Position numbers and translations under genes: made by a program. Shown piece by piece: positions 1,234 through 19,355 of a stretch of DNA of 64,000 bases; the stretch's first letter is position 1; each line of letters opens with the position of its first letter. The notes beneath the pieces are model-generated. The model was not told the origin of the DNA and searched no databases. It saw only the letters and a program-made list of their open reading frames with translations. The DNA is from Alphaproteobacteria bacterium (GTDB lineage: Bacteria; Pseudomonadota; Alphaproteobacteria; Caulobacterales; Aquidulcibacteraceae). The DNA is taken from NCBI GenBank assembly GCA_027488965.1, contig JAIYAO010000198.1:1-64000 (forward strand), read 5' to 3'.

Positions 1234-2352
1234 ATGGCGTCGGGTCCGCTGAAGGGAATTCGGGTTCTGGAGTTTGCCGGCATCGGGCCCGGACCGTTCA
1301 CGTGCATGTTGCTGTCGGACATGGGCGCCGATGTGGTGCGCGTCGACCGCAAGGGCGCGCGCGGATCGAAGTTCGATGTCACGAGCCGCGGGCGCCGCTC
1401 GGTGGCCGTCGATCTCAAGTCTCCCGACGGCGTGGCGGCTTGCGTGGCGCTCGCGGAGAAGGCGGACGTGCTGCTCGAAGGATTCCGCCCCGGCGTGATG
1501 GAACGCCTGGGCCTTGGTCCAGACGCGTTGCTGGCGAGGAACCCGAAGCTTGTGTACGCGCGGATGACGGGCTGGGGCCAGACGGGACCGCTCGCCTCGG
1601 CCGCCGGCCACGATCTCAACTACATTGCGCTCACCGGCGGCCTGCACGCCATGGGCCGGAAGAACCAGCCGCCGGCGCCGCCGCTCAATCTCGTGGGAGA
1701 TTTCGGCGGCGGCGCGCTCTACATGGCCATGGGAATCTGCGCGGCGCTGATCGAAGCGCAGCGCTCCGGCAAGGGCCAGACTATCGACTGCGCCATGACG
1801 GACGGGGCGGCGTCGCTCGCGTCGATGTTCTACGGCATGCGCGCGTCGGGTCTGTGGAGCGATGACCGCGACTCCAACCTCCTCGATGGCGGCGCCCACT
1901 TCTACGACACCTACGAAACCAAGGACGGAAAGTGGGTCTCGATCGGCTCTATCGAGCCGCAGTTCTACGCGCTGCTGCTGGAAAAGTCGGGCCTCTCGGA
2001 CGATCCAGCCTTCGCCGCGCAGATGGACCGCACCGCGTGGCCTGCGCTGTCGGAAAAGCTCGCGGGCGTGATCGCGACAAGGACGCGCGACGAGTGGTGT
2101 GCCCTGATGGAAGGCACGGACGTGTGCTTTGCCCCGGTTCTGTCGTGGGAAGAGGCCACGCGCCACCCGCACAACGTCGCCCGCGACACCTTCGTGACCA
2201 TCGAGGGTGTCGTGCAGCCGAACGTGGCGCCGCGGTTCTCGGGCACGCCCTCCAGGGTGCAGGGGCCGCCGCCGGAGGCGGGCGCCCACACCGCCAGCGC
2301 CATGGCCGACTGGGGCGTGGACGCCGCCCTCGTGGCGCGGGTCGCCGGCTGA
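1234..2352 (+). CDS. CaiB/BaiF CoA-transferase family protein, alpha-methylacyl-CoA racemase type
   Basis: Predicted to epimerise 2-methylacyl-CoA thioesters or transfer CoA, in cytoplasmic branched-chain or sterol side-chain catabolism. The 372-aa product begins [17 protein letters not shown], the typical N-terminus of this family. It contains [11 protein letters not shown], holding the His of the racemase active site, and NLVGDFGGG, holding the catalytic Asp. A later [12 protein letters not shown] segment fits the position of the active-site Glu. The track start at 1090 is too far upstream; ATG 1234 is chosen because AAGGAG lies about 8 bases before it and the family motif starts right after. 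The CoA-transferase genes scoA-scoB follow, which fits acyl-CoA metabolism. Confidence 0.88.
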
Positions 2353-2446
2353 ACGTCGTTCATCGGCGGTTCAAGACGGGACTGCGAGAAAGGTTGTGAC
2401 GGCGCGCTCCTCGTCCCTCGCTCGCGTCGCCGTCCTGGGTAATGCC

Positions 2447-2488
2447 AGACGAGCGCCGGCCGCCGGCTCAGCGGCCGGCGTTTCGTCT
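2447..2488 (+). terminator. Strong GC hairpin, probable terminator after the CaiB-like gene
   Basis: A perfect 10-bp inverted repeat (CGCCGGCCGC / GCGGCCGGCG, 7-nt loop) lies 100 bp after the stop codon. AGACGA/TCGTCT arms extend it across a small bulge. Only a short T run (TTTCGTCTGT) follows, so intrinsic termination is likely but not certain. Confidence 0.55.
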
Positions 2489-2508
2489 GTCTGGCGTCCT
2501 GCTCGCAT

Positions 2509-2519
2509 TGCACAGTGCA
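2509..2519. promoter_or_regulatory. Palindrome upstream of scoA (possible operator)
   Basis: TGCAC-A-GTGCA is a perfect 5-bp-arm palindrome. A second TTGCAC copy lies 15 bp downstream (2523-2528), both ahead of scoA. TTGCA/TGCAA-type sites are known for PhaR-like regulators of polyhydroxybutyrate metabolism, which would suit an acetoacetyl-CoA transferase. The assignment is inference only. Confidence 0.25.
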
Positions 2520-2575
2520 GCGTTGCACCCTAGAAATCGCGCTGACGCGGCGTCGCCGCCGCCACGGGAACAGGC

Positions 2576-3283
2576 ATGGCCAGCAAGGTCTATTCGGACG
2601 CCGCCTCTGCGCTCACGGGGCTCACCTTCGACGGCATGTCTGTGATGAGCGGGGGCTTCGGACTCTGCGGCATCCCGGAAAACCTGATCGTGGCGCTGCG
2701 CGATAGCGGCGTGAAGGGGATCACGGTGATCTCCAACAACGCGGGCGTGGACGGCTTCGGCCTCGGCCTTCTATTGGAGACGCGCCAGATCGCACGCATG
2801 GTCTCTTCCTACGTCGGCGAGAACAAGGAGTTCGAGCGGCAGTACCTCTCCGGCGAGTTGCAGCTCGAATTCAACCCCCAGGGCACGCTGGCCGAGCGCA
2901 TCCGCGCTGGCGGCGCAGGGATAGCCGGCTTCTACACGAAGACCGGTGTCGGCACGTTGGTGGCCGAAGGCAAGGACATCCGCGCCTTCAACGGCGAGGA
3001 TTACGTTCTGGAGACAGGGCTCACCGCCGATCTCTCCATCGTGAAGGCCTGGCGCGGCGACAAGGCCGGCAATCTCCAGTTCCGCAAGACCGCGCGCAAC
3101 TTCAATCCGATGATGGCGACCGCCGGCAAGGTCTGCGTCGCGGAAGTGGAGCAGCTGCTCGATGTCGGCGCACTCGACCCCGACAACATCCATACGCCCG
3201 GCATCTACGTCGACCGGATCGTGCAGGGCGGCTTCCAGAAGCGCATCGAACAGCGCACCACGCGCAAGCGGGAGGCCGTGTAA
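2576..3283 (+). CDS. scoA: 3-oxoacid CoA-transferase subunit A
   Basis: Alpha subunit of the two-component succinyl-CoA:3-oxoacid (acetoacetate) CoA transferase, which activates ketone bodies or acetoacetate with CoA from succinyl-CoA. The 235-aa product has the normal subunit-A length. It carries the glycine-rich [13 protein letters not shown] segment near residue 25, an [16 protein letters not shown] stretch, and [17 protein letters not shown], all typical of the family. The ATG at 2576 follows a gap of 223 bp that contains a terminator and a palindrome. The TAA stop overlaps the ATG of scoB (TAATG), so the two subunits are translationally coupled. Confidence 0.93.
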
Positions 3284-16292: not shown

Positions 16293-17135
16293 GTAAATAC
16301 AATAGGTTATGAGGCGCGCGGCGGCGTCGCATCGCGCGCTGATGACCCGTCTGTCCGCCGCGCGGCGGCCATCGACGCGCTCGTGGCGATCATGGCGAAG
16401 CTGCGCGATCCCGCCGACGGCTGCCCGTGGGACGTGGCCCAGACCTTCGCCACCATCGCGCCCTACACCATCGAGGAAGCCTACGAGGTCGCCGACGCGA
16501 TCCAGCGCGGCGCGATGCCGGAGCTGAAGGAAGAACTGGGCGACCTCCTCTTCCAGGTGATCTTCCACGCGCGCATGGCCGAAGAGACGCGCGCGTTCGA
16601 TTTCACCGACGTGATCGAGATGCTCAACGCCAAGATGATCGAGCGGCATCCGCACGTGTTCGGCGACGGCGCTGCGCGCCGCACGGCGGAGGACCAGAAG
16701 ACCGCGTGGGACGACCAGAAGGCGGCCAAGCGCGCCGAACGCGGCGCGGGGCTGCTGGCGGATGTCCCTCTCGCCCTCCCCGCCCTCATGCGCGCCGAGA
16801 AGCTCACCAAGCGCGCCGCGCGCGTGGGCTTCGACTGGCCTGACGCCGACCGCGTGCTGGAGAAGCTCGACGAGGAACTGGGTGAACTTGCTACGGCGCG
16901 CGCCGCGACGGACGACGCCAACATCGCCGAGGAAGTCGGCGACATCCTCTTCGTCATGGCCAACCTCGCCCGCAAGCTCGGCGTCGATCCCGAGGAAGCG
17001 CTGCGGCAGGCCAACGCGAAGTTCGAGCGGCGGTTCGGGCATGTGGAGCGGGAGATGAATGCGCGTGGGGGTGAGCACACGCTGGATGATATGGAGGCGT
17101 ATTGGGTGGACGCGAAGAAGGCGGAGCGGGCGTAG
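16287..17135 (+). CDS. mazG: Nucleoside triphosphate pyrophosphohydrolase MazG
   Basis: Hydrolyses (d)NTPs to NMPs and pyrophosphate, for house-cleaning and (p)ppGpp-related stress control. The 282-aa product has two MazG repeats. The first (residues about 30-135) has LRDPADGCPWD, then TIEEAYEVADAI and LKEELGDLLFQVIFHARMA with the EExxE-type metal ligands. The second (about 175-275) has EELGELATA and EEVGDILFVMANLARKLG. The first 15 codons are unusually AT-rich, so a later start cannot be excluded. The upstream MBL gene ends 31 bp before it. Confidence 0.93.
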   Translation: MSVNTIGYEARGGVASRADDPSVRRAAAIDALVAIMAKLRDPADGCPWDVAQTFATIAPYTIEEAYEVADAIQRGAMPELKEELGDLLFQVIFHARMAEETRAFDFTDVIEMLNAKMIERHPHVFGDGAARRTAEDQKTAWDDQKAAKRAERGAGLLADVPLALPALMRAEKLTKRAARVGFDWPDADRVLEKLDEELGELATARAATDDANIAEEVGDILFVMANLARKLGVDPEEALRQANAKFERRFGHVEREMNARGGEHTLDDMEAYWVDAKKAERA

Positions 17136-17307
17136 TCGGCGGAAGACATACGCCCCTCGTCACTCTGTTTGAGAACTGGCTGACGCTCTACTGCGCGGGG
17201 CGCGGCGAAAGACGGCTCCGTGGAGCGCCGCCTGGGATCGTGAGAAGCGCCACTCGAAACACGCCTCGATGGGTGACTTATAGCCTCGGCCATCGCTGCG
17301 CCACCAA

Positions 17308-18900
17308 TCAGGGCGCAGGCGGCAATACTATAGTTCTTGCTACCCGAAATCCCGAGATATGGTCTCGATGCGTGGGTCTGGCGCTGCTCCGCCTCGCTGA
17401 TCGCAAGTCCTCCGATGGTTTGATCCAAGAGCCCCCGCGGAGGACGCGGATGGAGCACGCTCTGTTGTCGATTGGCGAACCGTCAGCCGCAGCGCTGGAA
17501 TACTCGGCGAAGCAATCCTCGACCCATTCTTGAACGTTCCCGTGCATGTCGTACAGCTTGAACGCGTTGGGGGGAAACGAACCTACTGGCGCTGACTCGC
17601 TTTCCCACCGGTCTCGCCCGCCTGCAAAGCCCCCGTAACCTTGGCGGCGCTCCTTGCCGTAATTCGCATGCTGACGGCTTACTGCGTCGCCCCAAGGGTA
17701 AGGTGTCGTGGTGCCAGAGCGCGCCGAATACTCCCACTCCGCTTCGGTCAGCAATCGATAAGCCCGCCCACCGACTTTGCCGTTTAGCCAGCGCACGTAG
17801 CGCCTTGCGTCCTGCCAACTCACATTCATAACCGGTCGATTCGCGCGTCCCCAGCCGCGATCTTCCGGTACCCAAGGTCCATCCTCTTCAAGGCAGCCAC
17901 CGTCCGCGACGCAGGCATCCCACTCGGCAAACGTCACTTCGAACTTGCCCGCCGCAAACGGCCGCGAAATTGTAACTTGCCGCAGCGGGCCCTCGAAACG
18001 CGACCGTCCTGACTCTGTCTCCAAGCTGCCCATCATGAATTTTCCCGCCGGCACGACCACCATCCATGGACACACGTCGCAGTCGCGAAACTCTACGCCG
18101 GGTGTAGCTGGCGCGGGCGGGGCATCGCGGGTTGCCGCTAGGCTCCAGCGCGGCGCGCGCACGAGGCCGTCGCGGTACTCCGGCGACTGGCCGCCTTCGG
18201 TGGCGCGGAAGACGCGGTTGTTGACGTCGGAGAACAGGAGCGCGATCGGCTCTTCCGCCTGACGCTCCAGCGCCGCCGCCAGCGCCGTCGTGAACGGGCT
18301 GTTCTGGCCCCCGCCATCCGCCGCCGTGCGGCCCGGCGATGTCGCGTAGGCGATGAAGAAGTTCTGCGGTTTGCCGAGATCGGCGAGGCCCTCGCCGCCG
18401 ACGCTGCGCGCGCCGTCCGGCAGCGGCAGGTTGCGGCAGGCGTCGAGCACCAGGATGTTCACCGCGTTGCCGGCCGCGATCATGTCGTCGAGCAGGAACT
18501 GCATGGGCGGGGACTGGAAGCGCAGGCGGTCCATGGTCGTGGCGTTGGCGTCCACCGGCACGAGGTAGTTGGCGCCGTCCTTCTGCGCGCCGTGGCCGGC
18601 GTAGAAGAAGAAGCTCACCGTCGTGGGGCCAGCAGCCTTCAGCTTCGCGCCGAAATCACCCATCGCCGTTTCAAGCCGCGTGCGGTTGGCGTCGACGACG
18701 AGATCCACCTCGAAGCCGAGACCCTTCAGCCGCTCCGCCATCAGCCGCGCATCACGCGGCGGGTTTGCCAGCGCCCAGCCGGCCGTCGCATACGCACCGT
18801 TGCCGATCACCAGCGCGAGTCGTTTCGCTGGCGCCTGCGCTTGGCCCATCCCGGCCGCCAGCACCACCATCGCCGCGATCACCCGATGCACCCACCGCAT
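17308..18900 (-). CDS. Secreted caspase-like (C14) protein fused to an FGE/SUMF1-like domain
   Basis: The 530-aa product starts at ATG 18900 with a signal peptide (residues about 1-23, AAMVVLAAGMGQAQA). The track start 49 codons upstream has no export logic. Residues about 25-255 are a caspase-like peptidase: RLALVIGNGAY, His103 in FFFYAGHGAQ and Cys155 in VLDACRNLPLP. Residues about 278-527 are a formylglycine-generating-enzyme-like fold: VPAGKFMMGS, NVSWQDARRYVRWLN, LLTEAEWEYSARSG, MHGNVQEWVEDC and RVLRGGSW. The catalytic Cys pair expected after GGSW is absent (IKPSEDLRSARRSSARP), so it probably binds or presents ligand rather than making formylglycine. The 3' half looks less GC-rich than the 5' half. 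Confidence 0.87.
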   Translation of the reverse strand: MRWVHRVIAAMVVLAAGMGQAQAPAKRLALVIGNGAYATAGWALANPPRDARLMAERLKGLGFEVDLVVDANRTRLETAMGDFGAKLKAAGPTTVSFFFYAGHGAQKDGANYLVPVDANATTMDRLRFQSPPMQFLLDDMIAAGNAVNILVLDACRNLPLPDGARSVGGEGLADLGKPQNFFIAYATSPGRTAADGGGQNSPFTTALAAALERQAEEPIALLFSDVNNRVFRATEGGQSPEYRDGLVRAPRWSLAATRDAPPAPATPGVEFRDCDVCPWMVVVPAGKFMMGSLETESGRSRFEGPLRQVTISRPFAAGKFEVTFAEWDACVADGGCLEEDGPWVPEDRGWGRANRPVMNVSWQDARRYVRWLNGKVGGRAYRLLTEAEWEYSARSGTTTPYPWGDAVSRQHANYGKERRQGYGGFAGGRDRWESESAPVGSFPPNAFKLYDMHGNVQEWVEDCFAEYSSAAADGSPIDNRACSIRVLRGGSWIKPSEDLRSARRSSARPTHRDHISGFRVARTIVLPPAP

Positions 18901-18938
18901 CGGCCCCTCCCTTGTTGCGCCTCCGTCGCGCCACCCGT

Positions 18939-18970
18939 TCCCGGATCGACGCCAAGCGGCGGGTCCGGGA
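18939..18970. repeat. Palindromic unit (TCCCGGA ... TCCGGGA)
   Basis: TCCCGGA (18939-18945) and TCCGGGA (18964-18970) form a perfect 7-bp inverted repeat. A nested GCC-AAGC-GGC hairpin lies between them. The composition resembles dispersed intergenic palindromes of alphaproteobacteria; copy number cannot be assessed from this window. Confidence 0.45.
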
Positions 18971-19037
18971 TCCAGGGCGGTGGAGCGCGTCCACACCACC
19001 GAAATTCTCGCAGACATCCAGTGGCGGCGTCCATGGG

Positions 19038-19071
19038 CCCCGGACACGCGGGTTGTGCCCGCATTCCGGGG
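19038..19071. repeat. Palindromic unit (CCCCGGA ... TCCGGGG)
   Basis: CCCCGGA (19038-19044) pairs with TCCGGGG (19065-19071), and GCGGG pairs with CCCGC inside, giving a two-part hairpin. The ATTCCGGGG end resembles the CGTCATTCCGGG arm of the element at 39891. Confidence 0.45.
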
Positions 19072-19355
19072 ATGGGTGCGGTGTCGCCCGCGTCATCGCC
19101 CTCCCGTGGCGCTGCACCGCAGCAAACCTTCTTGCGCGGCCACAGCCGCTTCGGCGTGGCGCGCCCCTGTCTGGAACATCGTCTCCGGGGTCGCGACTGC
19201 GTCGCGCCCCGGAGAGAGAGAGAACCCGGCCAGTTTGTCGTGCGGGGTGCGGAGTCAGGTCACGCGCCGGACCGGTTTGTACATTCCCGCGCAGGATTTG
19301 TACGTCGCGGAAAACGATGACCAAATCGGCGCGGCGAAAGGCGGGATAGGGGCCC

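Follow-up and report, generated by a model that had tools for sequence, protein, structure and literature searches.

An apparently exported caspase fused to a PvdO-like FGE-fold domain that lacks the copper cysteines: a candidate recognition module

The window, the whole 64,000-nucleotide stretch of DNA that we analysed, encodes a caspase joined to a domain of the formylglycine-generating enzyme (FGE) fold. We put a probability of about 0.6 on the reading that this protein is an exported orthocaspase whose PvdO-like FGE domain, of the C-type-lectin fold, is a recognition module and not a formylglycine-generating enzyme. In such a mechanism, the protein would be exported to the periplasm or to the outside, the FGE domain would use its variable C-terminal surface to bind a ligand or a protein, and this binding would position or switch the caspase. 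The fold, together with the use made of such domains by diversity-generating retroelements (DGRs) in relatives, suggests ligand binding and control of the protease; we favor recognition because related domains in neighboring species are hypermutated.

The minus-strand open reading frame of 530 codons starts with an ATG at 18900, and its stop codon ends at 17308. A ribosome-binding site, AAGGGAGG, lies immediately 5’ of the ATG. The encoded protein consists, in order, of an apparent signal peptide, a caspase domain (PF00656) and an FGE-fold domain (PF03781). The first-pass annotation had described an intact His103-Cys155 dyad behind a signal peptide, and this description stands: both residues are present and are invariant in the eight same-family fusions that were aligned, and the N-terminal segment MRWVHRVIAAMVVLAAGMGQAQA, assigned by eye as a signal peptide, is resembled by the N-termini of relatives. 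Judged from this segment, the protein is apparently exported, to the periplasm or outside.

Table. Features of the caspase-FGE gene and its surroundings (window coordinates).
Feature	Position	Strand	Basis
Caspase-FGE fusion gene, 530 aa plus stop	17308..18900	-	ORF, ribosome-binding site, Pfam domains
Apparent signal peptide, residues 1-23, cleavage near QAQA/P	18832..18900	-	sequence inspection
Caspase (Peptidase_C14 p20) domain, residues 26-243	18172..18825	-	Pfam 1.1e-35; 3v4o fold match
Catalytic His103 (FYAGHG)	18592..18594	-	sequence; invariant in 8 family fusions
Catalytic Cys155 (LDACRN)	18436..18438	-	sequence; invariant in 8 family fusions
Linker, residues 244-273, Pro/Ala-rich, low model confidence mid-linker	18082..18171	-	pLDDT
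Conserved CxxC, Cys274/Cys277	18070..18081	-	Cys in 33/37 aligned domains
PvdO-like FGE-fold domain, residues 278-522	17335..18069	-	Pfam 7.4e-57; PDB 5hha match
Conserved Cys330/Cys336 pair	17893..17913	-	Cys in 34/37 aligned domains
Conserved Cys463/Cys482 pair	17455..17514	-	Cys in 36/37 and 35/37 aligned domains
Segment homologous to DGR variable regions, residues 488-519	17344..17439	-	alignment with relatives
Lys494 and Leu499, replacing the copper cysteines, inside residues 488-519	17419-17421 and 17404-17406	-	
Lower-GC stretch, 0.62 versus 0.71 around	17052..18096	.	change-point fit
2.2-kb insertion between convergent mazG and hflX	17136..19355	.	same-genus comparison

Both domain assignments are firm. 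Peptidase_C14 matched at 123.9 bits, against a Pfam cut-off of 21.4, and FGE-sulfatase (PF03781) at 193.3 bits; scores this far over the cut-offs exclude chance. With a p20 domain above the Pfam cut-off and a His-Cys dyad, the N-terminal half belongs to peptidase family C14 as a bacterial orthocaspase, and Cys155 is its sole cysteine. The best solved match of this half in Foldseek was the caspase domain of the MALT1 paracaspase (3v4o, TM 0.77). The likeness, which includes the dyad, is confined to the caspase domain; MALT1 is a mammalian intracellular protein. By analogy with metacaspases and paracaspases, the enzyme probably cuts after Arg or Lys. The window genome has 12 Peptidase_C14 matches, whose partner domains are FGE, MORN, WD40-like and PPC. 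Assignment of the window gene to a known defense-system model was rejected, the gene giving a weak generic caspase match only.

The C-terminal half had been described as keeping the motifs of the FGE fold while lacking the cysteine pair that should follow GGSW. Both observations were borne out. The scaffold motifs EAEWEY, GNVxEW, RGGSW and GFR are retained, and the sequence after GGSW is IKPSEDLRSARR. In an alignment that is ungapped at this site, GGSWIKPSEDL of the window protein faces GGSYLCAKNFC of the genome’s own FGE, so that Lys494 and Leu499 stand where that FGE has its two copper-site cysteines. Six cysteines are found in this half (274/277, 330/336 and 463/482), all of them upstream of GGSW and none downstream, and no two cysteines elsewhere in the chain were seen at the copper site. 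The Cys-bearing FGE of the window genome, on contig C33, adjoins a sulfatase. The domain thus has the FGE fold without the two copper-binding cysteines after GGS, and there is good support for the earlier view that it is no formylglycine enzyme: the cysteines are replaced, and the genome has a separate FGE beside the sulfatase. By analogy, loss of the cysteines alone would not exclude an enzymatic function, because PvdO is without the pair yet has been described as an oxidoreductase.

The first-pass annotation treated this cysteine loss as distinctive, but it is the rule in the subfamily. The copper pair occurs in none of 37 aligned FGE domains, comprising that of the window protein, its paralogues and the domains of sister genomes. 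A C-x4-C motif after GGS-W was likewise found in 0 of 18 caspase-FGE fusions on public contigs, and in 5 of the 195 FGE-domain ORFs of the public loci fetched, a set biased toward relatives of the query. The three cysteine pairs of the window protein, by comparison, are conserved in 33-36 of the 37 domains, and the region of the former active site is highly variable among them.

Structure prediction, which had been proposed as a check, supported the FGE fold. The AlphaFold2 model (mean pLDDT 87.6) predicts two confident domains whose mutual arrangement is uncertain because pTM is 0.61; pLDDT falls below 50 at model residues 226-238 (protein residues 249-261), in a linker that is probably flexible. 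In Foldseek the first match of the FGE half was PvdO (PDB 5hha, TM 0.85; the closest solved structure, matched separately at 180 bits), followed by FGEs at TM values of about 0.6-0.7; TvpA, the variable protein of a DGR, was matched as well. PvdO of Pseudomonas shares with the window FGE half the fold, about 40% identity, the CxxC and C463/C482-type cysteines and the absence of copper cysteines, and it is periplasmic, the window protein being apparently exported. It differs as a single-domain protein of pyoverdine maturation, whereas the window protein is a fusion with a caspase. FGEs (SUMF1 and the T. curvata and S. coelicolor enzymes) share the fold and the scaffold motifs; unlike them, the window FGE half has no copper cysteine pair. 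Comparison with the FGE, EgtB and metacaspase families, also proposed earlier, upheld the FGE fold and C14 membership but not EgtB: the ergothioneine synthase score was 54.6 bits against a curated cut-off of 360, and Pfam found only the caspase and FGE domains, with no DinB-like domain. Membership of PvdO itself (NF051459), for which the curated cut-off is 500 bits, was rejected at 207.3 bits, and gene context did not favor it either, with mazG and hflX as neighbors and no pyoverdine or siderophore cluster.

Two genomes of the same family, G003 and G004, carry DGRs that target the PvdO-like FGE domain. The DGR on G003 contig C44 (L120, 8928-14575) is complete: bAvd, RT and a template repeat accompany two FGE targets, the first of them a TIR-FGE, and in the two PvdO-like targets all differences between variable region and template inside the repeat lie at template adenines. 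This locus also has two template-like repeats, and its second FGE target begins with an apparent signal peptide. The G004 system places template and RT on C57 (L315) and the FGE target on C146 (L316), with 16 of 18 changes at A. On a further G003 contig, C171, caspase and FGE are fused in a protein that has the dyad and a signal-like N-terminus. This fusion ends in a variable region next to an Avd gene, and the contig stops there, so the fusion’s own RT and template are out of view. This variable region differs from that of contig C183 at 20 of 120 bases, and the downstream flank of about 195 bases, including the start of Avd, is near identical in the two contigs; C183 runs on into Avd and then the start of RT. 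A cyanobacterial contig (L194) has a caspase-FGE gene, an Avd-like ORF, RT and template on one piece, and all 19 template differences of its caspase-FGE fall at adenines.

These loci bear on the earlier suggestion of a ligand-sensing or substrate-binding module, which they support indirectly: DGRs use the homologous domain as their variable protein, both in sister genomes and in the cyanobacterial caspase-FGE, and a close caspase has Sel1 repeats in the place of FGE. The suggested control of the peptidase is an inference. Cyanobacterial DGR variable proteins with an N-terminal orthocaspase have been published (Vallota-Eastman et al. 2020, PMC7517822). Like the window protein, they combine this N-terminus with a C-terminal C-type-lectin-fold domain that carries the variable region; the window protein differs from them in that its genome is without detectable RT or Avd, its own segment shows no measurable hypermutation, and its N-terminus is an apparent signal peptide. 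A role as sensors in conflict systems has been proposed for C-lectin domains of the FGE type (PMC7159879, PMC10907252).

The window copy itself is probably a member of fixed specificity, inserted between hflX and mazG. It has the C-type-lectin/FGE domain and C-terminal variable segment of a DGR variable protein, but a template with adenine-confined differences was not found among those of relatives. Neither RT nor Avd/bAvd was detected in the draft window genome of 200 contigs, and an active DGR there is not supported. Compared with the templates of relatives, to which this test was limited, the window segment had no significant adenine bias (p 0.05-0.23), and the G003 C183 variable region, searched as DNA against the window genome, gave no match. 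Contig C60 of this genome ends in a truncated FGE that looks like a DGR target, as 21 of its 32 differences from the relatives’ templates are at A (p about 1e-6), although the test is confounded, with paralogues without a known DGR giving p around 1e-2 to 3e-4, because adenine codons mark exposed positions that are variable anyway. The C60 end (L127) is the C-terminal part of a caspase-FGE gene and the start of C140 (L073) an N-terminal part; the two ends may be one gene split by assembly.

The halves of the window protein differ in their nearest relatives. For the caspase half the nearest is a caspase-Sel1 protein of G017 (67% identity), and for the FGE half a fusion in G001 (59%), whose caspase half is only 37% identical. 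GC3 drops from 0.891 in the caspase half to 0.658 in the FGE half, with values of 0.81-0.93 in neighboring genes, and the lower-GC stretch begins at the domain junction and runs through the FGE half into the 3’ flank. At the level of sequence, the differing relatives and differing GC3 show the halves to be shuffled modules. The gap between mazG and hflX is 10 and 0 bp in the same-genus genomes G001 and G002; because the genes abut in both, the 2.2 kb of the window is read as an insertion, and its loss on two occasions would explain the arrangement less simply. A 17-nt direct repeat with one mismatch (17199-17215 and 19328-19344) lies near both ends; its tie to the insertion is suggestive and could be chance.

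Several other readings of the FGE half were weighed. It might merely anchor or localize the caspase in the envelope, through constant binding to wall or membrane and without regulation. Other caspases of the window genome and its relatives have Sel1, MORN, PPC or WD40-like partners, which suggest interchangeable binding parts and would suit an anchor, but the same surface is hypermutated by DGRs in relatives, which implies changing ligands rather than one fixed anchor; we regard this reading as rather unlikely. Chances are slim that the half is a Cys-independent, PvdO-like enzyme that oxidizes a peptide or siderophore in the periplasm, the caspase processing the same substrate. PvdO is the best structural and sequence match, is periplasmic, manages without copper cysteines and has been assigned the last oxidation of dihydropyoverdine (PMC6206403). 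However, purified PvdO was inactive and had no detectable cofactor (PMC6206403), the window protein reaches 207 bits where 500 are called for and sits beside hflX and mazG rather than in a siderophore cluster, and the former active-site segment varies strongly among relatives.

Decay of a mobile gene with no present function would fit the absence of the insertion at the same place in both same-genus genomes. We consider it very improbable, as the reading frame, dyad, cysteine pairs and scaffold residues are all intact and the same genome has at least three further complete caspase-FGE fusions, plus one cut by a contig end. A working formylglycine-generating enzyme that uses other cysteines has next to no likelihood: the fold and the six cysteines could accommodate one, but Lys and Leu occupy both copper positions, the remaining cysteines are three conserved pairs upstream of GGSW, and the genome has its Cys-bearing FGE beside a sulfatase. 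We retain recognition as the preferred function of the FGE half. As a tentative and possible extension, these proteins may form an exported, immune-receptor-like protease family with interchangeable recognition domains, some diversified by DGRs and others exchanged by recombination, in which the window gene would have fixed specificity and have moved as a unit between housekeeping genes.

Caspase/FGE-sulfatase fusions have been known since 2012, when they made up 33 of 671 sequences in a survey in which formylglycine production by the second domain was put forward as speculation (Asplund-Samuelsson et al. 2012, PMC3501461). The window protein has the same two Pfam domains in one chain as those metacaspase/orthocaspase fusions; it differs in the lost catalytic cysteines, the PvdO-like domain, the three conserved cysteine pairs and the apparent signal peptide. 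Such fusions turn up repeatedly across the bacterial phyla, and annotation based on domains labels their second half a sulfatase-modifying enzyme. Once this half is seen as cysteine-less and probably recognition-type, the misleading label gives way to a hypothesis that can be tested, that of proteases with changeable recognition outside the cytoplasm. The annotation point rests also on the sister genomes, where hypermutation is aimed at this domain of an apparently exported caspase.

Other arrangements of these domains were observed. TIR-FGE fusions occur at L120, L121 and L075, and G017 contig C8 (L058, 1189-3015) encodes an adenylate/guanylate cyclase domain fused to a PvdO-like FGE domain. 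A Methylococcaceae contig (L149) carries a DGR with three FGE-domain targets and one common template. On contig C89 of the window genome (L053), a CHAT-domain gene (1-1725; PF12770, 77 bits) overlaps the start of a caspase-FGE gene (1725-3254), an overlap which suggests that two caspase-like proteases may be translationally coupled.
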